Translations under genes and position numbers: made by a program
The notes under the pieces: generated by a model
What the model saw: only the letters and a program-made list of their open reading frames with translations
Database searches by the model: none
Told to the model about the DNA's origin: nothing
Source: Stenotrophomonas maltophilia R551-3
GTDB lineage: Bacteria; Pseudomonadota; Gammaproteobacteria; Xanthomonadales; Xanthomonadaceae
NCBI RefSeq assembly: GCF_000020665.1
Contig: NC_011071.1
Span: 1,912,501-1,976,500, forward strand
Reading direction: 5' to 3'
DNA: 64,000 nt
In this document: piece by piece, positions 1-13,539 of the stretch
How positions within the stretch are numbered: the first letter of the stretch is position 1
Layout of the letters: each line of letters starts with the position of its first letter

Positions 1-1185
1 GACCACGGCCAGTACGAGGCCGCGGCCGCGCTGGGCCTGCCACGTGGCCGCCAGGTGCGCCGCATCATCCTGCCGCAGGCGATGCGCTCGATCCTGCCGG
101 CAGCGTTCAACGATGTGATCGGCCTGGCCAAGAGCACGTCGGTGGTCTACGTGCTGGCGCTGCCGGAGCTGTTTTACACGGTACAGGTGATCTACCGACG
201 CAACCTGGAAGTGGTGCCGCTGCTGATGGTGGCCACGGTCTGGTACCTGGTGATCCTGACCGTGCTGTCGCTGCTGCAGCGGCGCGTGGAGCAGCGCTTT
301 GCGCGCGGCCAACTGCAGCGCGAGCGTTCGGTATCGCGTGTCTCGTCACCGACGCGCGCCACAGGTGAGGCTGCACCGCGCGTGGTCAATCGCCCGCGCA
401 TCGCCGCGCAGGTTGAAGCGGGCGAGGGGGCATCGGTGTCGCTGCATGGCGTAGGCAAGGTGTTCGGCGACCAGCCGGTGCTGGAAGACGTGAACCTGGA
501 CCTGCGCGCTGGCAGCGTGACGGTGCTGATCGGCCCGTCCGGCGCTGGCAAGTCCACGTTGCTGCGGCTGATCAACCACCTGGAACGTGCCGTCAGCGGT
601 TACGTGACCGTCGGCGGGCAGCTGATCGGCTACCGCCGCGATGGCGACACCCTGTACGAGCTGCCCGAACGCGAGATCCGCCGCCGTCGTGCGGAGGTGG
701 GAATGGTGTTCCAGGGCTTCAACCTGTTCCCGCACCTGACCGCGCTGGAGAACATCATCGAAGCGCCAATCGCGGTGCGTGGCGTGTCACGCGCGCAGGC
801 CGAGCAGCAGGCGCGCACGCTGCTGGAACGGGTTGGTCTGGCCGACAAGGCCGATGCCTTCCCGCGTCAGCTGTCCGGTGGCCAGCAGCAGCGCATTGCG
901 ATTGCCCGCGCACTGGCGCTGCAGCCGAAGGTGCTGCTGTTCGACGAACCGACTTCGGCACTGGATCCGGAACTGGTGGCCGAGGTGCTCAGCGTGATCG
1001 AGGAGCTGGCAAGCTCCGGCACCACGCTGGTGATTGTCACCCACGAACTGAGCTTCGCCCGCCGCGTGGCCGACCACGTGGTGATGATGGACCAGGGGCG
1101 GGTGATCGAGCAGGGCACGCCCGAAGCCCTGTTCGAGCGTCCGCGCCAGCAACGTACGGCCGATTTCCTCGCCAAAACACTGTAA
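1..1185 (+). CDS. Amino-acid ABC transporter, fused permease/ATP-binding protein (5' truncated)
   Basis: The frame is open from base 1, so the gene starts before the window. The first visible residues form an EAA loop (EAAxALGL followed by ILPQA), the motif by which His/Glu-type inner-membrane permeases dock to their ATPase. After a short Pro/Arg-rich linker (about nt 300-430) comes a complete polar-amino-acid ATPase: Walker A GPSGAGKST (about 532-560), LSGGQQQR signature (about 871-895), Walker B VLLFDEPTSALDP (about 931-969) and the H-loop VTHE (about 1036). Permease and ATPase are normally separate proteins in this family, so this is a natural fusion. It lies 16 bp before a periplasmic binding protein gene, so the two probably form one importer. 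The substrate cannot be read from the sequence. Confidence 0.93.
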   Translation, partial: DHGQYEAAAALGLPRGRQVRRIILPQAMRSILPAAFNDVIGLAKSTSVVYVLALPELFYTVQVIYRRNLEVVPLLMVATVWYLVILTVLSLLQRRVEQRFARGQLQRERSVSRVSSPTRATGEAAPRVVNRPRIAAQVEAGEGASVSLHGVGKVFGDQPVLEDVNLDLRAGSVTVLIGPSGAGKSTLLRLINHLERAVSGYVTVGGQLIGYRRDGDTLYELPEREIRRRRAEVGMVFQGFNLFPHLTALENIIEAPIAVRGVSRAQAEQQARTLLERVGLADKADAFPRQLSGGQQQRIAIARALALQPKVLLFDEPTSALDPELVAEVLSVIEELASSGTTLVIVTHELSFARRVADHVVMMDQGRVIEQGTPEALFERPRQQRTADFLAKTL

Positions 1186-1201
1186 CCCCGAAAGGAACGC
1201 C

Positions 1202-2176
1202 ATGAGCCCTGCCGCACCGCGTCGCCCCTCGCGCAGCACCCTGTTGATCGTGGGCGTGCTGGTCATTGGCATTGCCGGCATCGTCTACTCGCGCGTGCGC
1301 CAGGCACCGGATGCGAGCGTCGTGGCCGCGACCAGCCTTGCCGGTGCGAATACGGCGCTGCTGAAAGGAACGCTCGATCCCAAGGCGCAGGCATTGATCC
1401 CGGCCGGCTACCGCTTCGTCACGCCCGGTGCGTTCACCATCGCCACCCATCCCGGTCAGCTGCCCTTGGCCGACTACGGCGCCGACAGCAAGGACGTGGT
1501 CGGCGTGGAGCCGGATATCGCTCGCCTGATTGCCGATGGACTGGGGTTGAAACTGGTGGTGGTGCCGGTGGCTTGGGCCGACTGGCCGCTGGGTCTGGAA
1601 TCGGGCAAGTACGATGCGGTGCTGTCCAATGTGACCGTCACTGAAGAGCGCAAGAAGAAGTTCGACTTCTCCAGCTACCGCTACGATCTGCTCGGCATCT
1701 ATACGCGCAGTGATGGCCCGATCCAGAAGATCGAAAAGCCGGCCGACGTGGCCGGGCTGAAGGTGGTGGTCGGTGCCAGCACCAACCAGGACCAGATCCT
1801 GCGCCAGTGGGACCAGCAGAACATCGCCGCTGGATTGAAGCCGGTGGAATACCAGTACTTCGATGACGCCGTGGTCGGGCGGCTGGCGGTGATCACCGGG
1901 CGCGCCGATGTGTCGTTCGAACCCAATGCCACCGGCGCTTACTCGGCACGCGACGGCAAGGTGCGGCGTGTGGGCCTGTTCCCCGGTGGCTGGCCGAACG
2001 CCGCGGCGATTTCGGTCACCACACGCAAGGGCAGCGGCTTGGCCGATGCGGTGACCCAGGCGTTGAACACCCAGATCAGCAGCGGCACTTATGCCCAGGC
2101 GCTGGCGCGCTGGAACGTGGCCGAGGAGGCCGTGCCGCAGTCGCAGACCAATCCGCCGGGCCTGCCGGCGTTGTAG
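1202..2176 (+). CDS. ABC transporter substrate-binding protein (SBP family 3)
   Basis: 324 aa. An N-terminal hydrophobic segment (about residues 13-30) has no lipobox and no clear cleavage site, so it may anchor the protein in the inner membrane facing the periplasm. The rest matches family 3 amino-acid binding proteins: GVEPDIARLIADGLG near the N-terminus, the LSNVTVTEERKKKFDFS segment in the middle, and the ligand-lobe motif FEPNATGAY. A Shine-Dalgarno GAAAGGAA precedes the ATG. It is co-transcribed with the upstream permease/ATPase and should deliver its substrate to it. The TAG stop is part of a REP element. Confidence 0.9.
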   Translation: MSPAAPRRPSRSTLLIVGVLVIGIAGIVYSRVRQAPDASVVAATSLAGANTALLKGTLDPKAQALIPAGYRFVTPGAFTIATHPGQLPLADYGADSKDVVGVEPDIARLIADGLGLKLVVVPVAWADWPLGLESGKYDAVLSNVTVTEERKKKFDFSSYRYDLLGIYTRSDGPIQKIEKPADVAGLKVVVGASTNQDQILRQWDQQNIAAGLKPVEYQYFDDAVVGRLAVITGRADVSFEPNATGAYSARDGKVRRVGLFPGGWPNAAAISVTTRKGSGLADAVTQALNTQISSGTYAQALARWNVAEEAVPQSQTNPPGLPAL

Positions 2177-2243
2177 ATGACGCCGGGCATGGCCCGGCGC
2201 TACCGCTGCCTTTGTAGAGCCGAGCCATGCTCGGCTGCTCTAC
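2173..2243. repeat. Two GTAG-headed REP hairpins
   Basis: Two short hairpins lie between convergent genes. The first (2173-2203) begins GTAG and ends CTAC around stem CGCCGGGC/GCCCGGCG. The second (2214-2243) begins GTAG and ends CTAC around stem CCGAGC/GCTCGG. They belong to the REP type common in Stenotrophomonas. The first supplies the TAG stop of the binding-protein gene and the second supplies the TAG stop of the minus-strand gene. Confidence 0.85.
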
Positions 2244-5200
2244 CAACGCGCCTCCAGCGTTTTGAACGGCTTTGCCAGCCGAACACCTTCAGCATCGAAG
2301 TCGGAAACGCTGCGTCCATCCACGCGCACAGACTTCGGCGCGGTCCGGTTCGGCCACCACATGCGCACGGCGGTGTCCTTGCGCAGCCCCTCGCCAATCA
2401 CCACTGTCAGCAGCCCGTCGCGCTGCCGCGCCTGCATCTGCAACGTGCCATACGCGGTCGGCAGACGCTCCACCGCCAATCCATCGCCGGCCACCCACGA
2501 AGGCGGTGTGCCCGGCAGCAATGACAACGCGTCATCGTCCTCGCGCATCAACATGCCGAACAGCGTGCGGCCGTATTCGGCACCGATCCAGGTATGCGGC
2601 ATGTCGCCGAGGTAGCGCGGGAAGCGCAGCCGTGAATGCACTACTTCGGCCAGCACCTGCCATTCAAGCGGGCGCCGATCGTGAAGCAGGCCCTGCAACA
2701 GCTCGTCAGCCACGTCTGGCTGGCCAAGATGCACATAGCTCAGCACATTGCGGATCTCGTACGGTGTGTAGGCATACAGCGCACCGGGCTGGCTGCGCTT
2801 GCGCACGTCGTCCAGGTAGCGGGCGAAGGTGGTCCGCAACGCATCTGCCGGCAGCACGCTCTGCGCGCCGGTGGGATCCAGTGCGATCGATACGCCGGTG
2901 GGATCACCATCGCCCAGATCCGCGGAGGAAGGAATGAAGTCGATGCCCTTCCAGGCCATCGTTGCGCGGATCGACGCATGCAGGGCGTCGTACAGCGCCT
3001 TGTACTGCTCACGCGCCCAGCGTGCGGTCTCGTGGTCACCCAGCGATTCGGCCAGCCATGCACCGTCGTGCCAGCCCTTCAGGCCCCAGTAGTCATCCCA
3101 GTAGCTGTGGGTGGGCGACGGATAGCCCTCATGGCTGATCGACGGCGCAAGAATGCCCGCGAATCGCTCCGGCGCCGGCTGGTCGGCCTTGTAACCGGGC
3201 ACCAGCGTGCGCTCGCGCAGTTCCTGCAGGAAGCGCAGTGCGGCCTTCACTTTCGGCAGGTACGCGCGCACCGACTCCGGACCACCATCGAGGCGGGCGA
3301 CGTCGGCGACCAGCGCCACATACTGGCCCTGGCTGTCGTACTCGATATCCGAACCGAAGCCGGTGTTGACGCTGCCATCGCCGTTGAGGATGGGCGAGAC
3401 CAGGCCGTTGCCGTGCACGCCATGTTCGCTGTACCAGGCCAGATAGTCGCGCGCGACCTTGGCTTCGCCCATGCGCAGCAGCACCGCCGAGGTGGCCATG
3501 CCATCGCGGATGAAGGAGCGGTTGTAGTTGCGCGGGCCGGGCTGCATGGCCGGGCCGGTCTGGTTGATCAGCATGTAGGCAGCCTGCGCGCGCAGCATGT
3601 CGACCAGCGAGGGATCGGGCAGGCGCAGGCCGACCTGGCCCAGCCGCGCCTGCCAATCTGCGGACGCCTGCGTGGCCAGCGTCTCGAACGCCGCATTGGC
3701 ATCACGGGGCAGCGTGGTCAGGTCAAGCGCAGGCGCTTCGGGCAGCACGCCATTGGCATCGGCAGCGGCGGTGCCGAGTGGGAACGCCACGACCACCGCA
3801 TCGCTGGTACCGGGGGCGAGGCGGATCCGGTAGCTCAACGCGGCCGCGGCCAGTCCTTGCTCATCGCGTGCCTGCTGAGCGGCAGGCAGACGCCCGGCTG
3901 CGATGCCGGCGGTGATTTCCGTTGCACCTTCGTTGCCGAACGGCGCGGCTCCGGCAGCATCCACCGGCGTGAGCGAGCGCAGCAGCGTGCGGCCGTTCAC
4001 GCGCACCGTGTTGGCTTCGACGGCGACCTCGCGGATCGGCGACAGCCCGCCGTTCTGCCACGGCGGGTTCATCTGCATCGGTCGTACCGCCAGTGTCAGC
4101 GTGCCGTCGATCGTGGCGGTGCCGGTGTTGCGCAGGCGGTGGCGGACCAGGGTGACCGGTTGCCCGCCGCGTTCGATGGCGAAGGCCTCGCTGCGTAGTT
4201 CCAGTCCCGGCTGCGGTGCCCACGTGGCAGACGGCATTGGCTTCCAGCCGTCGCGCAGCGCGTGCTGCACCTTCTGCCCGGCGGCCCCGGCTGCGCTGCC
4301 GTCGGCATTGCGCCAGATCGGCTGTACCAGCGGTGCGCCCTTGAAGGCCTCGATGTTGCCGTACTCGTCGTAGATCGATTTCTGCCGGCCCGCGTGCACA
4401 CCCACGGCGGTCCAGTAGGTCTGCTGCATCTGCAGCGAGGCGGGGAACAAGGAACGTTGCGCACCGCTGGCGGCAATCTGGTAGCGCTTCATCGGCGTCA
4501 TCACGGCTTTCGGGCCGAGCAGGCGGATGCGTGCCACCTGGGGGGCATCGCCGTCGACGTTCAGCCGCAGTGCCTGCAGGTCCAGCGGCGCGCTGGCCGC
4601 GAGCCAGCTCTGCTGCCGGGTTGCCGCCTGTGCATCCGTGGCCAGTTCGTGCCAGCGGCCCTGGGCATCGCGTGCCTGCAGGCGCGCAGCGCCGTGCTCA
4701 TTGGCCCAGTCCACCGCCAGCCCGGTGCTGGACTGCGCGCGCGGCAGAACGATGTCGAGTGTGTGGGTACCGCCCTTGCCGGCGGGAATCGCCACCGCAC
4801 TGCCGCCCTGCCAGAGTGCCGCGGACTGCGTGGCATCGAGTCCGGCCACGCGCGCACTGAGCGTGGTGTCCAGCGGCTCCATTTCGAAGATGGACACGCC
4901 CCAGTCAGAAGTGCGCTGCGGGCTGGCCAGACGCAGGTAGCGGGCCTGGCGCGGTGCGAAGTACAGCGTTTCGATGCCGCCGAGCGAATCGGCCATGGTG
5001 TAGGCGGTCTGCCACTGCATGCCGTCCAGCGAGGTCTGCAGCGAATAGCCTTCCGGGTTGGAGACGTCCCAGGTGAGGCGTGCGCCGGCCAGCATTGCTG
5101 GCGCGCCGAGGTCGATCTGGAACCAGTGGCCCGGACTGAAGGCACCGCCGGTCACTGTTTTCGGATCGTTGTCGATCAGGTGGCTGATGGCCATCGCCGG

Positions 5201-5356
5201 AACCTGTTGCGACGACGCACTGGCCTGCCACTGGTCGCGGGCTGGCAGGTTCTGGGCATGCGCGGACATGGCCAGCCCGACAAACAGCAGGACCGCGGTG
5301 GGGCGGAAAGAGGAGGGCAGCTTGAGGACCGTGGAGCGTTCAACGCGAAATGCCAT
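2240..5356 (-). CDS. Secreted discoidin (F5/8 type C) domain protein with glycosidase-like helical barrel
   Basis: 1038 aa. A signal peptide ending SAHA is followed by a discoidin-like carbohydrate-binding domain (about residues 40-160, including DWGVSIFEMEPLD) and a second beta-rich region to about 290. A large C-terminal part has features of alpha/alpha-toroid glycoside hydrolases: RSFIRDGMATSAVLLRMGE near the middle, then SYWDDYWGLKGWHDGAWLAE and TWIGAEYGR. The acidic and aromatic residues fit a sugar-binding cleft, but I cannot assign a GH family or substrate. It is probably periplasmic or exported. A LacI-type operator lies about 56 bp upstream of the start, so it is probably induced by a sugar. 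The stop codon lies in a REP. Confidence 0.8.
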   Translation of the reverse strand: MAFRVERSTVLKLPSSFRPTAVLLFVGLAMSAHAQNLPARDQWQASASSQQVPAMAISHLIDNDPKTVTGGAFSPGHWFQIDLGAPAMLAGARLTWDVSNPEGYSLQTSLDGMQWQTAYTMADSLGGIETLYFAPRQARYLRLASPQRTSDWGVSIFEMEPLDTTLSARVAGLDATQSAALWQGGSAVAIPAGKGGTHTLDIVLPRAQSSTGLAVDWANEHGAARLQARDAQGRWHELATDAQAATRQQSWLAASAPLDLQALRLNVDGDAPQVARIRLLGPKAVMTPMKRYQIAASGAQRSLFPASLQMQQTYWTAVGVHAGRQKSIYDEYGNIEAFKGAPLVQPIWRNADGSAAGAAGQKVQHALRDGWKPMPSATWAPQPGLELRSEAFAIERGGQPVTLVRHRLRNTGTATIDGTLTLAVRPMQMNPPWQNGGLSPIREVAVEANTVRVNGRTLLRSLTPVDAAGAAPFGNEGATEITAGIAAGRLPAAQQARDEQGLAAAALSYRIRLAPGTSDAVVVAFPLGTAAADANGVLPEAPALDLTTLPRDANAAFETLATQASADWQARLGQVGLRLPDPSLVDMLRAQAAYMLINQTGPAMQPGPRNYNRSFIRDGMATSAVLLRMGEAKVARDYLAWYSEHGVHGNGLVSPILNGDGSVNTGFGSDIEYDSQGQYVALVADVARLDGGPESVRAYLPKVKAALRFLQELRERTLVPGYKADQPAPERFAGILAPSISHEGYPSPTHSYWDDYWGLKGWHDGAWLAESLGDHETARWAREQYKALYDALHASIRATMAWKGIDFIPSSADLGDGDPTGVSIALDPTGAQSVLPADALRTTFARYLDDVRKRSQPGALYAYTPYEIRNVLSYVHLGQPDVADELLQGLLHDRRPLEWQVLAEVVHSRLRFPRYLGDMPHTWIGAEYGRTLFGMLMREDDDALSLLPGTPPSWVAGDGLAVERLPTAYGTLQMQARQRDGLLTVVIGEGLRKDTAVRMWWPNRTAPKSVRVDGRSVSDFDAEGVRLAKPFKTLEARW

Positions 5357-5411
5357 TACAGACAGCCTCGCAGGTTCGGCCGGGATCGGGCGAGCGCTAC
5401 GCTAGCAAGTG

Positions 5412-5427
5412 ATGTAACCGTTTACAT
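5412..5427. promoter_or_regulatory. LacI/GalR-family operator
   Basis: ATGTAACCGTTTACAT is a 16-bp palindrome with one mismatched central pair. It matches the TGTAAnCGnTTACA consensus of LacI/GalR-family repressors that control sugar catabolism. It lies 56 bp upstream of the minus-strand secreted hydrolase-like gene. No LacI-family gene is present in the window, so the repressor must be encoded elsewhere. Confidence 0.65.
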
Positions 5428-5525
5428 GACGCGCTGCGGTAAGGGATGCGGCGGGCGTTGACGGATGTGGCTCTGGACGCATGGCCAGGATCGCCTAGGG
5501 TCATTGCCCAAGGTCGAATTGCCTG

Positions 5526-5543
5526 GGTTGTCATTTGACAACC
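5526..5543. promoter_or_regulatory. Perfect palindrome overlapping a -35 box (putative autoregulatory operator)
   Basis: GGTTGTCATTTGACAACC is an exact 8+2+8 inverted repeat ending 35 bp before the start of the small HicA-like gene. It contains a consensus TTGACA (5535-5540) on the coding strand, so a bound protein would block the -35 element. A weak -10 (CAGACT, 5559-5564) follows after 18 bp. The layout is typical of toxin-antitoxin autoregulation. The helix-turn-helix protein encoded at 5852 is the likely ligand. Confidence 0.6.
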
Positions 5544-5578
5544 TGGGTATGCCATGTGCAGACTAGGGAGAACAAGGA

Positions 5579-5821
5579 ATGTCTCGTGCTCGTCATCCCG
5601 ACAAGGACATCGAATGGGTACTGCGGTTCGCGGAAGCTCGAGGTTGGACCCTCCGTGTAGGTGGGAGCCATGCGTGGGGCCGCATGTATTGCCCTTACAA
5701 CGACACCGACTGCCGATGTGGAGAGTTCTGCGTCGTGAGCATCTGGAGCACGCCGCGCAGTCCTGGCAATCACGCGCGCGCCTTGCGCCGTGTGGTCGAG
5801 AACTGCAGTCGTGAGCAATGA
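5579..5821 (+). CDS. Small HicA-like protein, candidate toxin
   Basis: 80 aa. The order is a helical start, then RGWTLRVGGSHAWGRMYCP, a Cys-rich turn (CPYNDTDCRCGEFC), a beta strand VVSIWSTPRSPGNH and a C-terminal helix RALRRVVENC. The G-G-S-H core with a following basic helix resembles the double-stranded-RNA-binding fold of HicA/YcfA toxins, where the histidine is catalytic. The cysteine loop is not typical of HicA and could bind a metal. It is followed after 30 bp by a helix-turn-helix gene. Translation starts at ATG with GGGAG 8 bp upstream. The homology is judged by eye only; the family and the toxicity are inferred. Confidence 0.6.
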   Translation: MSRARHPDKDIEWVLRFAEARGWTLRVGGSHAWGRMYCPYNDTDCRCGEFCVVSIWSTPRSPGNHARALRRVVENCSREQ

Positions 5822-5851
5822 GATCAGGCGTTGATGGAAGTGAGGTGGCAG

Positions 5852-6352
5852 ATGATGGAATTCAATTTCACCCTGAAGTACCGCTTGCCGGACATCTGCG
5901 ATGACGTGGGTGTGCTCGAGCGGCGGCTGGTAGAGGCGGGGTGTGACGATGCCCTTCTGGGCAGCGGCCTGCCCGGAAGGATGGCGCTGGCCTTCTGCCG
6001 TGACGCCGACAGCGCGGTGGCTGCGTTGTGCTCGGCCGTCGATGACGTGCAACGGGCCGTGCCGGGTGCCGAACTGGTGGAAGTGAGCCCCGATCTGGTG
6101 GGGCTCACGGACGTGGCCGATCTGCTCGGGGTGTCACGCCAGAACATGCGCAAGCTCATGCTGGCCAACCCGCAGTCGTTTCCATCCCCGGTGCACGACG
6201 GCTCAACCTCCATCTGGCATCTCGCCGACATTCTGGGGTGGATGCGCGCGCGCGGCAGCGAGAAAGTCACCACGGAAATGTCCGATCTCGCCGCCGCCGC
6301 ACTGCAGCTGAATCTGGCACGCGAAGGGCGCAGGCTGCAGCCCAAGGTGTAG
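5852..6352 (+). CDS. Helix-turn-helix protein, candidate antitoxin of the HicA-like gene
   Basis: About 166 aa from the ATG at 5852, chosen because GAGG lies 7 bp upstream; TTG 5831 and ATG 5834 are alternatives. The N-terminal half (FNFTLKYRLPD to about residue 75) is a small alpha/beta domain. It is followed by PDLVGLTDVADLLGVSRQNMRKLM, a clear MerR/excisionase-like winged helix, with SIWHLADILGWMRARG at its end. In HicB antitoxins a small alpha/beta domain also precedes a DNA-binding domain, but this protein is not a recognisable HicB. It probably binds the palindrome at 5526-5543. I do not recognise a named family. Confidence 0.65.
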   Translation: MMEFNFTLKYRLPDICDDVGVLERRLVEAGCDDALLGSGLPGRMALAFCRDADSAVAALCSAVDDVQRAVPGAELVEVSPDLVGLTDVADLLGVSRQNMRKLMLANPQSFPSPVHDGSTSIWHLADILGWMRARGSEKVTTEMSDLAAAALQLNLAREGRRLQPKV

Positions 6353-6440
6353 TGCAGGGCGACCGCATCAGCGCCGTCATCACCGCTGGCGTCCTGCAGG
6401 GCGCTCGAAGGCGCCTTGCAGGTGCGCTGCCACTCCCGCT

Positions 6441-7334
6441 TCAGCCTCGTGGCGAGAGCAGGTCTGCGAGACCGATGGCGGTGTACATCTCGCGTCGCAT
6501 GCGATCGGCAACGGCATTGACCACTTCGGCGCCGTCCTGTGAGGGGTCTACATGTACCCGGAACGGCCGATGTCCGTGTGGCAGGCCCACGACCCGCACG
6601 ATCTGCCGCGCGACCTCCTCGGGATCGGCATCTGCAGGCTCCAACCCTACCAGGCCCTTCAGCGCCTGGTCGGCGACACCGGCGTAGGGACCGTTCTCAT
6701 AGTCGGCCGCGATGGCGGTATCGGCGGGCGTGCCCGAATGCAGGAAATGGTTGGTGCCCTTGGTGAATGCACCCGGCACCATGATGGTGGTCTCGATGCC
6801 CCACCGCGACAGTTCGGTTGAATAGGACACGGCCAGTGCATCCATGGCTGCCTTGGCGGCGAAATAGGGCGCAAGGAACGGAGGAGTGCCACCGCGTGTG
6901 GAGGACGAGCCGATCCAGACGAGCAGGCCGTTGCCACGGCGGCGCAGGTGCGGAAGCGCGGCGCGGTTCACCCGCTGTGTGCCCAGTACGTTGACGTCGT
7001 ACTGCTGCATCAGCTGTTCCGGGGTGAACGCTTCAGCCGGCCCGAACACCATGTGCCCGGCGTTATGCACGATGACGTCGAGCGCGCCTGCGTCGGTCAG
7101 CACCTGTTCGACCGCCGCCTGGCTGGACGCGTCCGACTGTACGTCCAGTTCGACGCTGCGAAGGTCGGCGTGATGCGCGTCTGCCCACTGTGCGATGTCG
7201 GCCACCCGCGTTGCATTGCGCCCGCGTGTTTCGCGCATCGAGGCGTAGACGACGTGGCCGGCAAGGGCCAGTGCCTTGGCGGTCATCAGGCCGAAGCCGG
7301 AGGATGCGCCGGTGATCAGGATGGTGTGTGACAT
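6441..7334 (-). CDS. SDR family oxidoreductase
   Basis: 297 aa classical short-chain dehydrogenase. The NAD(P) motif GASSGFG lies near the N-terminus, followed by NAGHMVFG (NAG motif), the active-site Ser in WIGSSSTRG, and a catalytic YxxxK in APYFAAKAAMD. I chose the ATG at 7334 because GGAG precedes it; an in-frame ATG at 7361 overlaps the stop of the upstream gene (ATGA) and cannot be excluded. It is the last gene of a minus-strand operon with a DUF1097 membrane protein and another SDR. The substrate is unknown. Confidence 0.88.
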   Translation of the reverse strand: MSHTILITGASSGFGLMTAKALALAGHVVYASMRETRGRNATRVADIAQWADAHHADLRSVELDVQSDASSQAAVEQVLTDAGALDVIVHNAGHMVFGPAEAFTPEQLMQQYDVNVLGTQRVNRAALPHLRRRGNGLLVWIGSSSTRGGTPPFLAPYFAAKAAMDALAVSYSTELSRWGIETTIMVPGAFTKGTNHFLHSGTPADTAIAADYENGPYAGVADQALKGLVGLEPADADPEEVARQIVRVVGLPHGHRPFRVHVDPSQDGAEVVNAVADRMRREMYTAIGLADLLSPRG

Positions 7335-7357
7335 GGGAGCTCCAGAAGAAGAGAGGG

Positions 7358-7855
7358 TCATGGCCGGGCGCGGGCCAACAGGCGCTGCGGCACGGTGTGT
7401 GCGGTCCAGGCGGCCAGTGAACCGAGGGCGCTGGCCGCGGCCAGCTCGGAGAGATGGGCCAGCGAGGGCTCAAGGTGGGCCGCGAACCAGCTGACCAGTC
7501 CGAGGAAGTACCCCAGCAGGTTGTTCAACACCGGCAGGCCACGCAGGGCAACCACGCACAGCGCTACGACCAGTACAACGACGGGCACGGCCAACGAGGG
7601 ATCCAATGGGTGAGAGAGCAGGCCCACTGCAAGTGTTGCCAATGCGCCGATGCCCAGCCCGAACCAGACGCAGGCCAGGTTTTCGATCGTGGAGCGCGTG
7701 CCCTGCAGCTGGGTGAAAAAGGCAATCCAACCGATGAACATCGTCCACACTGGCCAGCCGGCATGCAGCGCTCCGGCTGCGGCGAAGGCAGCGGTGACCG
7801 CTGCGGTCACGGTGACGAGGGCGTAAGCGCTGCGGGAAACGGGGATCGGATTCAT
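7358..7855 (-). CDS. DUF1097 family membrane protein
   Basis: 165 aa from MNPIPVS. At least four hydrophobic segments cover most of the protein, including WTMFIGWIAFFTQ and the Leu/Val-rich stretch after HPLDPSL. The LPVLNNLLGYFLG region fits the DUF1097 family of small inner-membrane proteins with no known function. It sits between two SDR genes, 16 bp after the first and adjoining the second, so all three are probably co-transcribed. Confidence 0.72.
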   Translation of the reverse strand: MNPIPVSRSAYALVTVTAAVTAAFAAAGALHAGWPVWTMFIGWIAFFTQLQGTRSTIENLACVWFGLGIGALATLAVGLLSHPLDPSLAVPVVVLVVALCVVALRGLPVLNNLLGYFLGLVSWFAAHLEPSLAHLSELAAASALGSLAAWTAHTVPQRLLARARP

Positions 7856-7871
7856 GGCGTCTCTCCGTGGT

Positions 7872-8615
7872 TCAGACCGCGCCGCCGTTGGCACGCAGAA
7901 CCTGACCGTTGATCCACCCGCCGTCGGTACCGGCCAGGAAGGCCACAGCAGCGGCGATGTCATCCGGCGTACCCAGGCGTTCAAGCGGGCTCATCTTTGC
8001 CAACCGGTCGATCAGTTCGGCTGACTTGCCTTCCAGGAACAGGCTCGTTGCCGTCGGGCCCGGTGCGACGGCGTTCACGGTGATGCCGCGGCCGCGCAGC
8101 TCCTTGCTGAGGATGGCGCTCATGGTTTCCACCGCCGCCTTGCTTGCCGCATAGACGCCATAACGCTCGAGCTTGAATCCGACCACGCTGGTGGACAGGG
8201 TGACGATGCGGCCGCCATCGCGAACCCGTCGTGCGCTCTCGCGCAGCACATTGAACGCACCCTTCAGGTTGATGGCGATGAGGCGGTCGAACAGCGCGTC
8301 TTCGCTTTCGGCCAGCGCAGCGAGTTCCAGTACCCCGGCACTGTGCACGACCACATCGATACCGCCGAAGCGGGCCTCAATGGCATTGAACAGGGATTGC
8401 ACCGCCTGAGGATTGGCAACATCGGCTTGAAGTGCGATGGCCTGGCCGCCGTTGGCCATCAGTTCGGCGGCCAGTGCTTCGGCTTCTTCGTGACGGCCGG
8501 CATAGTTGATGGCAACCGAGAAGCCATCGGCGGCGAGGCGGCGGGAGATGGCGGCACCGATACCGCGCGAGCCGCCGGTGACAAGGGCAACGGGGGCTGA
8601 GGAAGCGATGTTCAT
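7872..8615 (-). CDS. SDR family oxidoreductase (3-oxoacyl-ACP reductase-like)
   Basis: 247 aa. It begins with the Rossmann motif VTGGSRGIGAAI and has NYAG, HSAGVLE, the active-site Ser in TLSTSVVG, and YGVYAASKAAVE (YxxxK). It ends with the FabG-like AFLAGTDGGWINGQVLRANGG. This pattern places it with the NADP-dependent FabG-like SDRs. It is the first gene of a three-gene minus-strand operon. An inverted repeat at 8676-8709 lies in its promoter region. The physiological substrate cannot be told from the sequence. Confidence 0.88.
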   Translation of the reverse strand: MNIASSAPVALVTGGSRGIGAAISRRLAADGFSVAINYAGRHEEAEALAAELMANGGQAIALQADVANPQAVQSLFNAIEARFGGIDVVVHSAGVLELAALAESEDALFDRLIAINLKGAFNVLRESARRVRDGGRIVTLSTSVVGFKLERYGVYAASKAAVETMSAILSKELRGRGITVNAVAPGPTATSLFLEGKSAELIDRLAKMSPLERLGTPDDIAAAVAFLAGTDGGWINGQVLRANGGAV

Positions 8616-8675
8616 GTTCAGATCCAGGAAGGTGCACCCACATGGCGCACGATCATCCTGAGCGTAATTTCCTGA

Positions 8676-8709
8676 CGGATAATCCCCCTTGATCCGCCAA
8701 TATTATCCG
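8676..8709. promoter_or_regulatory. Inverted repeat upstream of the SDR operon
   Basis: CGGATAAT (8676-8683) and ATTATCCG (8702-8709) are exact inverted arms separated by 18 bp in the AT-richest part of the 222-bp gap before the SDR operon. The position 60-95 bp upstream of the start fits a regulator site. The binding protein is unknown. Confidence 0.4.
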
Positions 8710-8837
8710 GATGGTCGAACAATCAGGCGGCCGACCCGCTGCAGGTCCCCGTCCGGGCCCCCAGAGGCGGCTGCGCCTGCTGCAACACCCGCGCGAGGCG
8801 GGTGCGGCAGAGGGTTCCAGGCAAGGGCGGTTGCTGG

Positions 8838-9914
8838 TTACAGCTGCACCTGCTCCCACCAGCGCGTGCCGGCGCTAGGCGCCTGCATGTCCAGCGCTTC
8901 GCCCATCATCGGCGTGGCGACCGGCACGCTGTTTGCCTCCGCCAAGGCGGTGATGCGTTCGAAGGGCTGCTGCCATTCGTGCAGGGCCAGGTCGAAGGTG
9001 CCGTTGTGGATCGGCAGCAGCCACTTGCCGCGCAAGTCCAGGTGCGCCTGCAGGGTCTGTTCGGGCTGCATGTGCACGAACGCCCAGCGCGGGTCGTAGG
9101 CACCGGTTTCGATCATGGTCAGGTCGAACGGGCCGTACTTCTCACCGATGGCCTTGAAACCGTCAAAGTAGCCGGTATCGCCACTGAAGAAGATGCGGAA
9201 GTCGCCGTCCTGGATCACCCACGACGCCCACAGGCTGCGATCGCTGTCGCCCAGCCCACGGCCGGAGAAATGCTGGCCCGGGGTGGCGGTCAGGCGCAGG
9301 CCGCTGGCTTCGGTGGACTGCCACCAATCCAGCTGTTCCACCTTGCTGGCGTCCACGCCCCACGCAATCAGCTGGTCGCCCACACCCAGCGGTGCGATGA
9401 AGCGCGCGGTCTTGCCGGCCAGCTGCATCACCGCGGCATGGTCCAGGTGGTCGTAGTGGTTGTGCGAGAGGATCACGCCGGCGATCGGCGGCAGTTGGTC
9501 GATGCTGATCGGCGGCGCGTGGAAGCGGGCCGGGCCCATCCATTGCACCGGCGAAGCGCGCTCGGAGAACACCGGATCGGTCAGCCAGTACTGCCCGCGC
9601 AGCTTCAGCAGGATCGTGGAATGCCCAAGCCGGAACAGGCTGCGATCAGGCGCGGCGTCCAGGGTGGCGCGGTCCAGCGGCAGCACCGGAATGGGGTGGG
9701 CGGGCACGGTGCCCTTGGGCTTGTTGAACAGGAACGTCCACCAGATCTCCGCGCCATCGCGCAGGCCCATCGCCGGACGCGGCAGGGCATTACGGAACTT
9801 GCCGTCGCGGTACTGCGGCGATTCGGGGAAGTCGGGGAGGGACCAGGACTTGCAGAAGGTGTAGGCGGTCACGGCGAGGATTCCAAGCAAAAGGACAAGG
9901 AGCAGGCGCTTCAT
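8838..9914 (-). CDS. MBL-fold metal-dependent hydrolase (RomA/UlaG-like)
   Basis: 358 aa from MKRLLL. A single N-terminal hydrophobic helix (about residues 2-20) anchors or exports it. The metal-binding motif SHNHYDHLDHAAV, the later FSGDTGYFDGF and the C-terminal LPIHNGTFDLALH fit the beta-lactamase-superfamily branch that includes RomA and NAPE-PLD-like lipases. It is transcribed divergently from a TetR gene, and two copies of a palindromic operator lie between them, so that TetR protein very likely represses it. The true substrate is unknown. Confidence 0.85.
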   Translation of the reverse strand: MKRLLLVLLLGILAVTAYTFCKSWSLPDFPESPQYRDGKFRNALPRPAMGLRDGAEIWWTFLFNKPKGTVPAHPIPVLPLDRATLDAAPDRSLFRLGHSTILLKLRGQYWLTDPVFSERASPVQWMGPARFHAPPISIDQLPPIAGVILSHNHYDHLDHAAVMQLAGKTARFIAPLGVGDQLIAWGVDASKVEQLDWWQSTEASGLRLTATPGQHFSGRGLGDSDRSLWASWVIQDGDFRIFFSGDTGYFDGFKAIGEKYGPFDLTMIETGAYDPRWAFVHMQPEQTLQAHLDLRGKWLLPIHNGTFDLALHEWQQPFERITALAEANSVPVATPMMGEALDMQAPSAGTRWWEQVQL

Positions 9915-9931
9915 GGGTGACGTCCGCTGGG

Positions 9932-9982
9932 TACACTGCACAGTGTAGTTTCGTGTTTTTCAAAAGTACACTGAACGGTGTA
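9932..9982. promoter_or_regulatory. Two TetR operator copies between divergent genes
   Basis: TACACTGCACAGTGTA (9932-9947) is an exact 7+2+7 palindrome. TACACTGAACGGTGTA (9967-9982) is the same site with one mismatch. The copies start 35 bp apart in the gap between the MBL-fold gene (minus) and the TetR gene (plus), suggesting one operator per promoter and autoregulation. Confidence 0.75.
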
Positions 9983-10018
9983 AAATGTGCAGATCCGTTC
10001 AGCTATCTGGTTCCTGCC

Positions 10019-10630
10019 ATGCCCCGTGCCCCGCAACGCCTGACCGACCGCAAACGCGACGCCATCGTGCGCGCGGCGGTGGAGGAGTTCCGTGCGGCGG
10101 GGTACGAGGCGACCAGCATGGACCGCATCGCCGAAGTGGCCGGGGTCTCCAAGCGCACCGTCTACAACCACTTCCCGAGCAAGGAAGCGTTGTTCTCGAT
10201 GATCCTGGAGGAGCTGTGGGAGCGCAGCGTGGCCAGCGACGCACTGCCGTACCGCGCCGACCAGCCGCTGCAGGCGCAGCTGATGCAGCTGCTGGGGCAG
10301 AAGCTGGAACTGCTCAGCGATGCCAACTTCATCGACCTGGCACGGGTGGCAATGGCCGAGATCATCCATTCGCCGGAACGTGCGCAGGCCATCGTCTGCC
10401 GCATGGGCGAGAAGGAAAGTGGCGAGAGTGCCTGGATCCGCGCGGCGATCGCCGACGGCCGGCTGCGCAAGGTGGATCCGGAGTTCGCCGGTCACCAGCT
10501 GCACGGCCTGGTGAAGAGCTTTGCGTTCTGGCCGCAGGTGACGATGGGTCAGGCGCCGTTGAACGAACAGGAGCGTGCACGCGTGGCCGAATCGGCGGTA
10601 GCGATGTTCCTGGGTTTCTACGCGATCTAG
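10019..10630 (+). CDS. TetR/AcrR family repressor
   Basis: 203 aa from MPRAPQRL. It has the TetR-type DNA-binding domain: RDAIVRAAVEEFRAAGYEATSMDRIAEVAGVSKRTVYNHFPSKEALF. The C-terminal ligand domain resembles the AefR-like group (HSPERAQAI, FAGHQLHGLVKSF). It is divergent from the MBL-fold hydrolase and two matching palindromes lie between them. Its stop shares the sequence CTAG with the stop of the convergent EAL gene. Confidence 0.88.
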   Translation: MPRAPQRLTDRKRDAIVRAAVEEFRAAGYEATSMDRIAEVAGVSKRTVYNHFPSKEALFSMILEELWERSVASDALPYRADQPLQAQLMQLLGQKLELLSDANFIDLARVAMAEIIHSPERAQAIVCRMGEKESGESAWIRAAIADGRLRKVDPEFAGHQLHGLVKSFAFWPQVTMGQAPLNEQERARVAESAVAMFLGFYAI

Positions 10631-12573
10631 CTGGCAGCGAAGCGGCGGAACTCGTCGGCCGGCAATGCCGCCGAGTACAGATAACCCTGGCCGACATCCA
10701 CCCCCAGTGCGCGCAGTTGCTGTTCCTGGGCCAGGGTTTCAGTGCCTTCGGCCACCACGATCGCACCGCAGCGGTGCGCGACTTCGACGATGAAGCGCAC
10801 GATCGACTGCGACTTGGCATCGGACAGCGTGGCGATCAACGCCTGCTCGATCTTGACCTCGGCGATGGCCAGCTGCGAAAGCAGGATCAGGGTCGAATAG
10901 CCCGCGCCGAAATCATCCAGCGACAGGGTGACCCCGGCTGCCAGCAGCTGTGCGATGTTGGCATCGACCACGTCGCGCTCGACGATCTCGGTCCACTCGA
11001 CGATTTCCAGCCGCAGCATCGCACCGGGGATGTCGTGCAGCTGCAGCAGCTCCTGCAGGCGCAGACCGAAGTCGGGCAGGCGCAGGGATTCGGCGGAAAC
11101 ATTGACCGCGATCGTCAGCTTGCTGCCTTCCTGATGGCAGCGCTGCAGGAACTGGATGGCTGACTGCAGCGTGGCCCATTCCAGATCGGCCAGCCGGCCG
11201 TGCCGACGCAGCAACGAGATCACCCGCATCGGCGCGATCAAGCGGTTCTCGCCGTCACGCATGCGCAGCAATGCTTCGGCGCCGACCAGCTGGCGGTCCT
11301 GCAGGCGATGCTTGGGCTGGTAGCACAGCGGCGCGTCGCCATGCTGCAGCCAGTGCTCGAGTGCGCGCTCGATCAATGCGTCGATCTCGCTGTCGCGCTG
11401 GACCGGGTCATCGAAAAACACCACGCCCGACTCGATCGCACTCAGCGCCAGGGTGATCGCACGGAACGGGAGATGGCCATCGTCGGCAGTGGCCGGTGGC
11501 TTCAGCTCGACTACCGCACAGCGGAACAGTGGCCGGAAGCCCGGCCAGTCGCGCCCGACCAGATCAGCCAGGTTGCGAGCCAGATCGGTGATCTGCGACT
11601 GCGTGCGCAGCTCGGGCAGCGAGGTGTCACGTACCAGGATCGCCAGCGCAGCGTCGCCGAACTGGTAGATCTCCAGTTGGTGCGCCGGTAGCGAGGGCAG
11701 CAGCTGATGCACTTCGTCGGTGCTGTCATGCCGCCACAGGCCGTTGTCCTGCAGCGGCCCATAGCGCAGGCGGAGGTCGCGCAGGTTGCCCATCTCGGCC
11801 ACCACCAGGCAGGCCTTGCCGACGCCATCATTGTCACGCCAGTAGTGCTTCAGCCGTTCGCCGAGCGCGCGCATGTTGGGCAGGCCACTGATCGGGTCGA
11901 TGCGCAACCAGGCTTGCTCACGCTGCCGCTGCGTATCGATCTGTGCATCGTTGTAGACCAGCGCGAACACTGCGCCGAGCACCAGCAGCGACACCGGCAG
12001 TGCCAGTACGCGCTGGATCGCCAGCTCGGCAACCGGCAACTGCGCGGCACCGATGATGGCCACGCCCAGCGCCAGCCCCAGCGCTGTCACTGCGATGCGC
12101 ACGCCCCATGCCTGCAGGATCATGCGCGCTGACAGCTCGCTGAGCATGCGTGGGTGCAGGCGCGTGCGCAGCCAGATGCCGGCCATCACCTGCAACGTGG
12201 CTTCGATGCTGGCGGGAAGGAAGTACGGGGTGCCTGAGAACTGGTAACGGGCCAGCAGGCTGGCGGCCAGGCAGGCCAGACCGCCGCGCCAGCCACCGAG
12301 CAGGCCACTGATCAGCAGGACGTCGAAGCCGAGATTGAGCTTGACCACGCCCTGGGTGTAGCCGGCGACGAACCAGGCGTTGAACAGGTAGATCAGGCCG
12401 AGTGCTACGCCTACATACAGGCGGCGGCCTTCAATAGCGTGGCCGGAGCGGCGGGTGGCGATCAGCAGTACGCCGATCATGCCGATCACCGCCGTGGCCT
12501 GCAGCAGGTACAACGGCAGGCTGGGCAGGGCGCTGTCCAGGACCTGGGCCGAGACCCGTGAAAGCGCATCCAT
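10627..12573 (-). CDS. Membrane EAL-domain protein with degenerate GGDEF (c-di-GMP phosphodiesterase)
   Basis: 648 aa from MDALSRV; a TTG at 12603 is a less likely start. Five to six N-terminal membrane helices carry a 5TM-LYT-like signature (GLLGGWRGGLACLAASLLARYQ). A degenerate GGDEF follows: DPISGLPN is kept but the catalytic loop reads FGDAA. The EAL domain keeps the expected catalytic set: EALLR, the Asn of VNVSAESL, the Glu of EIVEW, DDFGAGYS, the Lys of EVKIEQ, AEGTET and QGYLYS. It should therefore hydrolyse cyclic di-GMP in response to an unknown membrane signal. Confidence 0.87.
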   Translation of the reverse strand: MDALSRVSAQVLDSALPSLPLYLLQATAVIGMIGVLLIATRRSGHAIEGRRLYVGVALGLIYLFNAWFVAGYTQGVVKLNLGFDVLLISGLLGGWRGGLACLAASLLARYQFSGTPYFLPASIEATLQVMAGIWLRTRLHPRMLSELSARMILQAWGVRIAVTALGLALGVAIIGAAQLPVAELAIQRVLALPVSLLVLGAVFALVYNDAQIDTQRQREQAWLRIDPISGLPNMRALGERLKHYWRDNDGVGKACLVVAEMGNLRDLRLRYGPLQDNGLWRHDSTDEVHQLLPSLPAHQLEIYQFGDAALAILVRDTSLPELRTQSQITDLARNLADLVGRDWPGFRPLFRCAVVELKPPATADDGHLPFRAITLALSAIESGVVFFDDPVQRDSEIDALIERALEHWLQHGDAPLCYQPKHRLQDRQLVGAEALLRMRDGENRLIAPMRVISLLRRHGRLADLEWATLQSAIQFLQRCHQEGSKLTIAVNVSAESLRLPDFGLRLQELLQLHDIPGAMLRLEIVEWTEIVERDVVDANIAQLLAAGVTLSLDDFGAGYSTLILLSQLAIAEVKIEQALIATLSDAKSQSIVRFIVEVAHRCGAIVVAEGTETLAQEQQLRALGVDVGQGYLYSAALPADEFRRFAAS

Positions 12574-12636
12574 AGCAGGTTCCCGCCTGTGACCGACGGC
12601 CAATGACGAGCAGGGTAGTCGCAGCAGCGCGCAGGT

Positions 12637-13539
12637 TCAATTGTGACCGCCGCCCTCAGGGAGAAGGTGGCCGGCCATGAAATCGACGAACACACGCACG
12701 CGCGGTTGCAGATGACGATGGCTTGGCCAGAGTGCCCAGAAGGTGCTTTGTTCGGTGGTCCATTCGTCCAGGATGCTGACCAGCGTGCCGTTGCCAAGCG
12801 CGTCCCGTGTGGCGAAGTCGGGCAGGCACGCAATGCCGTGGCCATCAATGGCCATGTGCAGGATTGTCTCAAGATGATTGGCGGTCATTGCAGGCATCAG
12901 CCGCACGTCCTGGCCTGCAGCGTTTGCCTGAAGCGGCCATCGCTCGATCAGGCCGGTGCCGGGAAAACGATGGAGAAGGCATGCGTGGCCGCCCAGCTCG
13001 TCCGGGTGCCGTGGCGTGCCTCGGTTCGCGAAGTACGCAGGGGCACCCACGCAGAGCAGCCGGGTGCTGCCCAGGTTGCGGCCGTGCAGCCGGGAGTCGG
13101 CGGGACTGCCTGTCCGAACGACGACGTCGAAGCCTTCCTCGATGACATCGACAAGACGATCACTGAAGTGCAGGTCCAGTTCTATGGCCGGAAAGCGGTG
13201 CGCGAATGCGGAAAGCAGCGGCAGCATCAGGCCGCTTACAAGAGGAAGACTTGCTTTCAGGCGACCGCTGGGCGCGGCGTGGGCATCGGTCAGCTCACGC
13301 TCGGCGGCAGCGACTTCGACCATGATGCGGCGGCAGCGTTCAAGGAATTGCTCGCCCTCGGCAGTCAGGCTGACACTGCGGGTATTGCGATTCAGCAGGC
13401 GGGCTCCCAGGCGCTCCTCCAGGCGGGCAATGGTCTTGCTTGCCGCCGAAGGGGTGATGCCACGCTGGCGAGCTGCGGCGGCGAAGCTGCGCGCCTCGGC
13501 GACCAGAACGAAGAGACTGAGACCGGCAAGGCTGTCCAT
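12637..13539 (-). CDS. LysR family transcriptional regulator
   Basis: 300 aa. It has the N-terminal winged helix LVAEARSFAAAARQRGITPSAASKTIARLEERLG and a substrate-binding half typical of the group that controls neighbouring transporters or reductases (VVRTGSPADSRLHGR, HLETILHMAIDGHGIACLPDF). It is divergent from an MFS exporter gene 120 bp away, which is the classic arrangement for LysR control of the neighbour. Confidence 0.88.
   Translation of the reverse strand: MDSLAGLSLFVLVAEARSFAAAARQRGITPSAASKTIARLEERLGARLLNRNTRSVSLTAEGEQFLERCRRIMVEVAAAERELTDAHAAPSGRLKASLPLVSGLMLPLLSAFAHRFPAIELDLHFSDRLVDVIEEGFDVVVRTGSPADSRLHGRNLGSTRLLCVGAPAYFANRGTPRHPDELGGHACLLHRFPGTGLIERWPLQANAAGQDVRLMPAMTANHLETILHMAIDGHGIACLPDFATRDALGNGTLVSILDEWTTEQSTFWALWPSHRHLQPRVRVFVDFMAGHLLPEGGGHN

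Follow-up and report, generated by a model that had tools for sequence, protein, structure and literature searches.

Which system is encoded by two small adjacent genes of Stenotrophomonas maltophilia R551-3, the first specifying a HicA-like protein and the second a helix-turn-helix (HTH) protein that is not clearly a HicB? The pair lies in a 64,000-nucleotide (nt) stretch of the 4.57 Mb, single-contig host genome (NC_011071.1, positions 1,912,501 to 1,976,500; hereafter the window, whose numbering we use). Gene A (PDC-M06A; 5579..5821, + strand) encodes a putative toxin of 80 amino acids that carries GGSH at residues 28-31, ending in His31, a C38-x6-C45-x-C47-x3-C51 loop and a further cysteine, Cys76. 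Gene B (PDC-M06B; 5855..6352, + strand) follows after an intergenic gap of 33 nt and encodes a putative antitoxin/repressor of 165 amino acids, so the arrangement of motif-bearing small gene and HTH gene that an earlier note had read from the DNA letters is indeed present. Both assignments draw on matches to PADLOC models, on structure models and on ratios of nonsynonymous to synonymous substitution (dN/dS). We propose that A and B probably form an autoregulated type II-like toxin-antitoxin operon, in which a HicA-like toxin is joined to a new kind of antitoxin/repressor.

The start of B is most likely at 5855, directly preceded by purine-rich GGAAGTGAGG, with an ATG at 5852 equally possible; the TTG start at 5831 given in the list of open reading frames (ORFs) is a mechanical call.

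Genes A and B are kept together

A search of protein clusters, with the best 120 of each listed, returned 474 A-like clusters among 474 candidates and 1272 B-like clusters among 2348 (E<=1e-3). In a sample of 91 genomes of the genus, A was detected in 21 and B in 34, three of the latter weakly (E 3e-9 to 3e-4), and B adjoined A in 21/21 of the A-bearing genomes. Likewise, when 398 genomes of the phylum were searched with both profiles, a clear A (E<1e-10) was found in 23 with B adjacent in 23/23, and a clear B in 26, the three without a clear A comprising one full-length copy (G230) and two partial ones (G345 and G471). Three weaker A matches in this sample (G166, G172 and G360; E 3e-5 to 4e-4) had no adjacent B and were taken as chance, and seven weaker B matches covered mostly the HTH. 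Named genomes yielded 361 encoding stretches when scanned; we retained the best 80, and wherever the A profile finds A among them (77/77), A is the gene immediately before B on the same strand. The earlier note's expectation that the two genes would stay together was thus borne out.

The pair is also carried by a Gloeothece plasmid (L141), a Sulfitobacter conjugative plasmid and the phage-plasmids SSU5 and Cyrano (SSU5-type). DNA resembling the SSU5 pair was present in 134 of 5,426 complete E. coli genomes, in all cases on plasmids, with only 2 of the 134 matches spanning at least 80% of the query. Another locus, from 'Nostoc sp. XA010' (L034, NZ_JAIVFX010000079.1), is of Stenotrophomonas type, and its last 100 nt upstream and its profile scores are the same as those of L012 from the Stenotrophomonas group; it is therefore probably a contaminating contig and was not used as evidence of breadth, which for the cyanobacteria rests on the Gloeothece plasmid. 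In addition, nine loci (L048-L051, L053 and L056-L059) from Roseateles, Delftia, Pigmentiphaga, Paracidovorax, Achromobacter and other genera have the same A and B profile scores and common downstream genes, which resemble arsenic-resistance genes; these represent a recently spread element.

A conserved inverted repeat overlies the candidate promoter

Immediately upstream of A lies a candidate operator, the inverted repeat GGTTGTCA-TT-TGACAACC (5526..5543, without strand), with a conserved core. The earlier note had called it an exact 18-bp palindrome; the repeat is there and contains TTGACA, but in GGTTGTCATTTGACAACC a central TT separates two perfect 8-bp arms, and the whole is not an exact palindrome. 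The right arm is overlapped by TTGACA (5535-5540), the -35 element of a candidate promoter predicted from the sequence and the family pattern (5535..5564, + strand), with CAGACT, the best -10 candidate, 18 nt further on. A consensus sigma-70 promoter scan of 4800-7200 gave no full match.

Using loci that had an A start, a B and enough upstream sequence (120 of 142), we compiled 98 distinct upstreams of A homologues. The core GTTGTCNNTTGACAAC was exact in 78 of them and present with at most one mismatch in 85/98, lying over TTGACA, whereas only 1 of 19,600 base-shuffled upstreams came that close; placement of an operator over the -35 box, as the earlier note had it, is accordingly a feature of the family, with the qualification that the loci are related and the 85 are not a count of independent events. 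The core begins at -48 from the A start in 60/85 and between -53 and -41 in the others. Nine of the 13 remaining upstreams (L125, L128, L130-L134, L139 and L140) have a different and sometimes imperfect repeat, GTTGAC-N4-GT(C/T)AAC, over TTGAC, two (L081 and L142) have the core at two mismatches, and in L126 and L129 no inverted repeat was seen upstream. Taking the best of three spacings (16-18 nt), the -10-like hexamer stands 17 nt from TTGACA in 73 and 18 nt in 16 of the 91 TTGACA-bearing upstreams, and reads CATACT, AATACT or CAGACT in 62/91.

In the 4.57-Mb host genome this locus has the sole exact copy of GTTGTCNNTTGACAAC. Across the 398 genomes, the exact 18-mer was found in 9, against one genome for a reversed-pattern control, and in 8/9 it was just upstream of A, which indicates a site specific to this operon; the ninth (G345:C23:2993-3010, L228) has no clear A alongside. 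We infer that B binds this inverted repeat.

B outlives A, and both genes are under purifying selection

We assessed which gene of the pair is lost first by following loci from either side. Among the 80 B-driven named loci, A was intact by length in 71, broken or partial in 6 and absent in 3, and two of the 71 (L079 and L098) proved by tblastn to have a damaged frame. The 30 B-driven genus loci comprised 19 intact pairs, one broken A with intact B, four B without A (one of them, L024, at a contig edge) and six partial B without A. Because B-driven sets select for B, the weight lies on loci found through A: of the 22 A-driven phylum loci, the window being left out, 20 were intact pairs, one had a broken A with intact B and one had both broken, and an intact A without B was seen in 0/22. 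A gene B that outlives A, with A not found alone, is the pattern predicted for a toxin held by its antitoxin.

The same asymmetry is visible at one chromosomal locus, marked by an upstream F5/8-domain gene and/or downstream beta-lactamase-fold and TetR genes, where the pair is intact in some relatives (e.g. L010-L017), A is interrupted by a stop codon in L018, L021-L023 have B but no A, and L025 and L028-L030 retain just the N-terminal domain of B. Likewise, in E. coli phage-plasmids B is kept with A gone (pTB212, L229) or A is interrupted (pYLPD4a, L230). Within the query's clade, omitting L018 for its broken A, median dN/dS was 0.081 for A and 0.146 for B, showing purifying selection on both.

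Stand-alone B N-domains with neither HTH nor A were observed in L025-L030, L044 (9194-9415) and L065 (9118-9339). The copies in L025, L026 and L028-L030 have neighbouring genes in common with the window's locus and resemble relics. In L028-L030 the open frame is kept (dN/dS 0.25-0.35 over three pairs), which may reflect weak purifying selection or recent decay; domestication as an antitoxin is another possible reading.

Protein A has a predicted HicA-type fold with an added Cys/His loop

Protein A matches six PADLOC PDC-M06A models, the best being PDLC04385 (3.2e-44, covering 1-79 of 91). Pfam gave nothing for A, NCBIfam a single match far below cut-off, and a search of the PDB by sequence only weak similarity to WD-40 repeat proteins (31 residues, best E 0.0027), with nothing from the A profile. 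The structure model (predicted local distance difference test, pLDDT, 83.9) adopts the alpha-beta-beta-beta-alpha double-stranded-RNA-binding fold of HicA plus a Cys/His loop. Comparison of this model with the PDB using Foldseek gave no E below 0.9. HicA entries were covered over nearly their whole chain, and six of the 50 viral structure matches listed are named HicA or HicA-like.

In 25 aligned members H6, H31, T58, P59 and C76 are invariant, and 24/25 have a loop with at least three Cys/His. The GSH histidine is catalytic in HicA; His31, set opposite this motif in a weak alignment and present in 25/25 members, is predicted to take the same role. The HicA likeness claimed in the earlier note therefore holds for the predicted fold and the GSH histidine and fails for sequence homology, and the proposed kinship comes from a modelled fold and one motif.

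Protein B is predicted not to be a HicB

Protein B matches PADLOC PDLC04388 (PDC-M06B) at 1.6e-70, covering 1-164 of 174. Pfam gave only a weak HTH_17 match (E 0.17), NCBIfam nothing, and the PDB nothing informative by sequence. The model of B (pLDDT 86.0) comprises a ferredoxin-like domain at ~1-79, a winged HTH at ~81-132 and a C-terminal helix at 140-161, with the order beta-alpha-beta-beta-alpha-beta predicted for the N-domain at a pLDDT of ~90 over residues 1-80. The nearest folds listed for this domain by Foldseek against the PDB are ferredoxin-like and uninformative.

The partial RNase H fold of HicB (beta-beta-beta-alpha-beta) is not predicted for B, 25 B members compared with Pfam at E<=10 touched 24 families, none of them HicB, and hhalign found no alignment between the B N-domain and 11 ORFs regarded as HicB because they lie beside hicA. 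A HicB chain was also absent from the 50 structure matches listed for B, which by itself excludes nothing. Profile comparison, Pfam and predicted fold thus agree with the earlier note that B is not a HicB. Phage_AlpA (PF05930) was touched weakly by 8/25 B members at E<=10 (best 0.0039), with no match for the query B, and some B homologues are named AlpA in their source records.

Covarying hairpins surround the operator in relatives

In relatives such as L002, L003, L066, L069, L075 and L089 the operator core forms part of a longer hairpin, with covariation between the outer arms. Our survey covered 83 distinct operator windows, 69 outside the query's clade and 14 within it. Outside the clade the outward flanking pairs 2-7 were Watson-Crick in 60.9%, compared with 16-28% when slid by 1-3, and position 3 was paired in 47/69 windows by four pair types (shuffle mean 20, maximum 31). 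Parsimony on the B-gene tree gave 46 pair-keeping double changes, against 0-5 in slid controls, with the pair broken by 80 single and 6 double changes on the same tree. The signal thins as redundancy is removed: 33 representatives below 90% B identity have 20, 20, 19 and 22 pairs at positions 2-5 (slid mean 7.0, maximum 13), and 10 representatives below 70% have 6, 5, 7 and 5 (slid mean 2.5, maximum 6). The 14 windows of the query's clade showed no covarying arms, with position 3 paired in 1/14.

Flanking arms that ran unbroken for 4 bp or more were seen in 29/38 windows with an integrase upstream and 3/45 without, a difference confounded by descent; integrases of one family within 400 nt were counted, most of whose matches end 42-69 nt away. 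A terminator or a single-stranded-DNA promoter is not proposed for the long hairpins: no T-tract followed the arms in the sequences viewed, and the -10 is outside the stem. Paired arm changes also occur between loci with 96-98% identical B (L002/L003 and L066/L069), which weakens coevolution with repressor specificity as their cause, and template switching between arms, as outlined in the available text of PMC8794818 and PMC7202029, could also produce them. The hairpin may belong to the integrase transcript, at its 3' end, may serve as an insulator or may have arisen by template-switch repair of the arms.

Genomic surroundings

The pair is flanked by a divergent F5/8-type-domain gene (2240-5356, - strand) and a short-chain dehydrogenase gene (6441-7361, - strand), with beta-lactamase-fold and TetR genes downstream in the window. 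Nine of ten neighbouring proteins (55-13539) matched no PADLOC model at 1e-5 and the tenth, an ABC-type ATPase (55-1185), matched many generic ATPase models, so no defence island is evident around the pair. Rfam gave no family within 5300-6500. Elsewhere in the genome PF07927 identified one other locus and not A, namely a hicA at G000:C1:2839510-2839680 (L154; 9.5e-18) with a HicB-looking ORF, judged by position and appearance, 8 nt downstream; the host therefore probably also has an ordinary HicAB.

A toxin-antitoxin model and its alternatives

In the model that we propose, a metal, probably zinc, would hold the fold of A, bound by the Cys/His loop that joins strands 2 and 3 and by the invariant Cys76, with which helix 2 ends. 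A would be silenced by direct binding of B, probably via the ferredoxin-like N-terminal domain of B, and a B dimer would sit by its winged HTH on the inverted repeat over the -35 box and keep the operon repressed. Were B to fall on loss of a plasmid or island, or on phage takeover, A would be released as a toxic ribonuclease (RNase), which could serve maintenance of the element and/or abortive anti-phage defence. We tentatively hold it quite possible that this constitutes a new toxin-antitoxin class on chromosomes, integrative islands, plasmids and phage-plasmids, with a metal-stabilised HicA-fold RNase beyond recognition by sequence and an antitoxin whose ferredoxin-like/winged-HTH fold is unreported for HicA partners; in islands the operator would be the core of a hairpin after the integrase gene, with outer arms exchanged pair by pair and perhaps insulating the operon from integrase read-through.

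Several results weigh against a HicA-like toxin. PF07927, the HicA family, matched 0/25 A members at E<=10, and the HicA structure matches of A are middling and tied with unrelated folds. The chief caution comes from ICEclc, whose Shi protein is described in the available text of PMC6812849 as HicA-like yet not toxic alone. Since Shi there belongs to an alpA operon, the same case favours another explanation, in which B, resembling AlpA, regulates integration/excision or the genes of the element, and A is a small co-factor and not a toxin. An integrase of one family (representative matching PF00589 and PF13356) does lie within 400 nt upstream of A, in the same direction, in 38 of the 83 operator windows, and the AlpA names and weak Phage_AlpA matches of B homologues point the same way. 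However, 45 of the 83, the query included, lack an integrase of that family upstream, in a count by which other families would be missed; the confinement of the exact operator to A in 8/9 genomes means that no regulon is visible; and A is lost while B stays. We consider this explanation rather unlikely.

It is improbable that B is simply a self-repressor and A an unrelated passenger whose HicA resemblance is the coincidence of a small fold. The middling structure matches and the lack of sequence homology would suit such a unit, but an invariant His31 at the GSH position, coverage of HicA entries over nearly the whole chain, the HicA names among the viral matches and the asymmetric loss of A and B all count against it. 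Joint action of A and B as a two-gene anti-phage defence system, and not as toxin and antitoxin, is unlikely too. The pair is listed in PADLOC-DB among the PDCs ('phage defence candidates'), which derive from a guilt-by-embedding screen as described in part of PMC12988326. However, the available text of PMC11811056, PMC12429752 and PMC12988326 calls the set unpublished or untested candidates, two others (PDC-M63 and PDC-S04) gave no defence in one native host according to part of PMC12409345, and the neighbourhood shows no evident defence island; a defence role is moreover compatible with a toxin-antitoxin pair and not exclusive of it. Most likely, then, an autoregulated toxin-antitoxin pair fits the evidence better than these alternatives. 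The earlier note had named a structure unlike HicA, genes lying apart and the lack of a conserved palindrome as results that would speak against it; we found a HicA-type predicted fold, adjacent genes and a conserved repeat.

Comparison with known systems

The description of the pair as new in the earlier note does not stand. Adjacent A and B match the models of PDC-M06 in PADLOC-DB 2.0.0 nearly full length and are the same thing, and a prophage copy, Cyrano CYRAN_51/CYRAN_50, has been published as HicA/HicB (PMC9928086, in the part available), whose Table 1 shows transcripts above the prophage background, 30-fold for A and 14-fold for B, in E. coli LF82 grown in LB; this expression of a homologous pair lends outside support to the proposed model. 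The PADLOC-DB library assigns PDC-M06 no function, and the literature searched, which included no bioRxiv preprints, contained no paper naming it and none with anti-phage activity of the pair; it is known to a database without a described function in that literature. The family is a widespread, unpublished defence candidate, named in the records consulted as 'hypothetical protein', as an HTH or AlpA-type regulator and once as HicA/HicB. By profile CYRAN_51/CYRAN_50 and SSU5_055/054 are of the same family as A/B, with A proteins 32-33% identical to the query, a shorter Cys/His loop and a GTTGAC-type operator, and the 'HicB' label of the Cyrano partner is unsupported for the B family.

The alpA/parA-shi operon of ICEclc, compared by its description in PMC6812849, resembles the pair in having a HicA-like small protein and an AlpA-annotated regulator in one operon on an integrative and conjugative element; Shi works with ParA, no B-type partner being reported in the available text. 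The pair's anatomy matches no described toxin-antitoxin type that we found. None of the 14 HicA classes or contexts in the available text of the survey PMC10865869 has a B-type partner, and the words zinc, cysteine, ferredoxin and AlpA are absent from its main text.

A further close comparison is HicAB itself, Gerdes classes 3/4 in the available text of PMC10865869, with which A has the GSH histidine in common. Unlike HicA, A has no PF07927 match and carries a Cys/His insertion, and unlike HicB, B lacks the predicted partial RNase H fold and has an N-domain predicted to be ferredoxin-like, so that B is the part at which the HicAB label fails. The proposed model ties together parts that can be tested, namely His31, the Cys loop and the operator, and, if true, would add a new type of antitoxin to those of HicA toxins together with a well-defined operator for studies of regulation.
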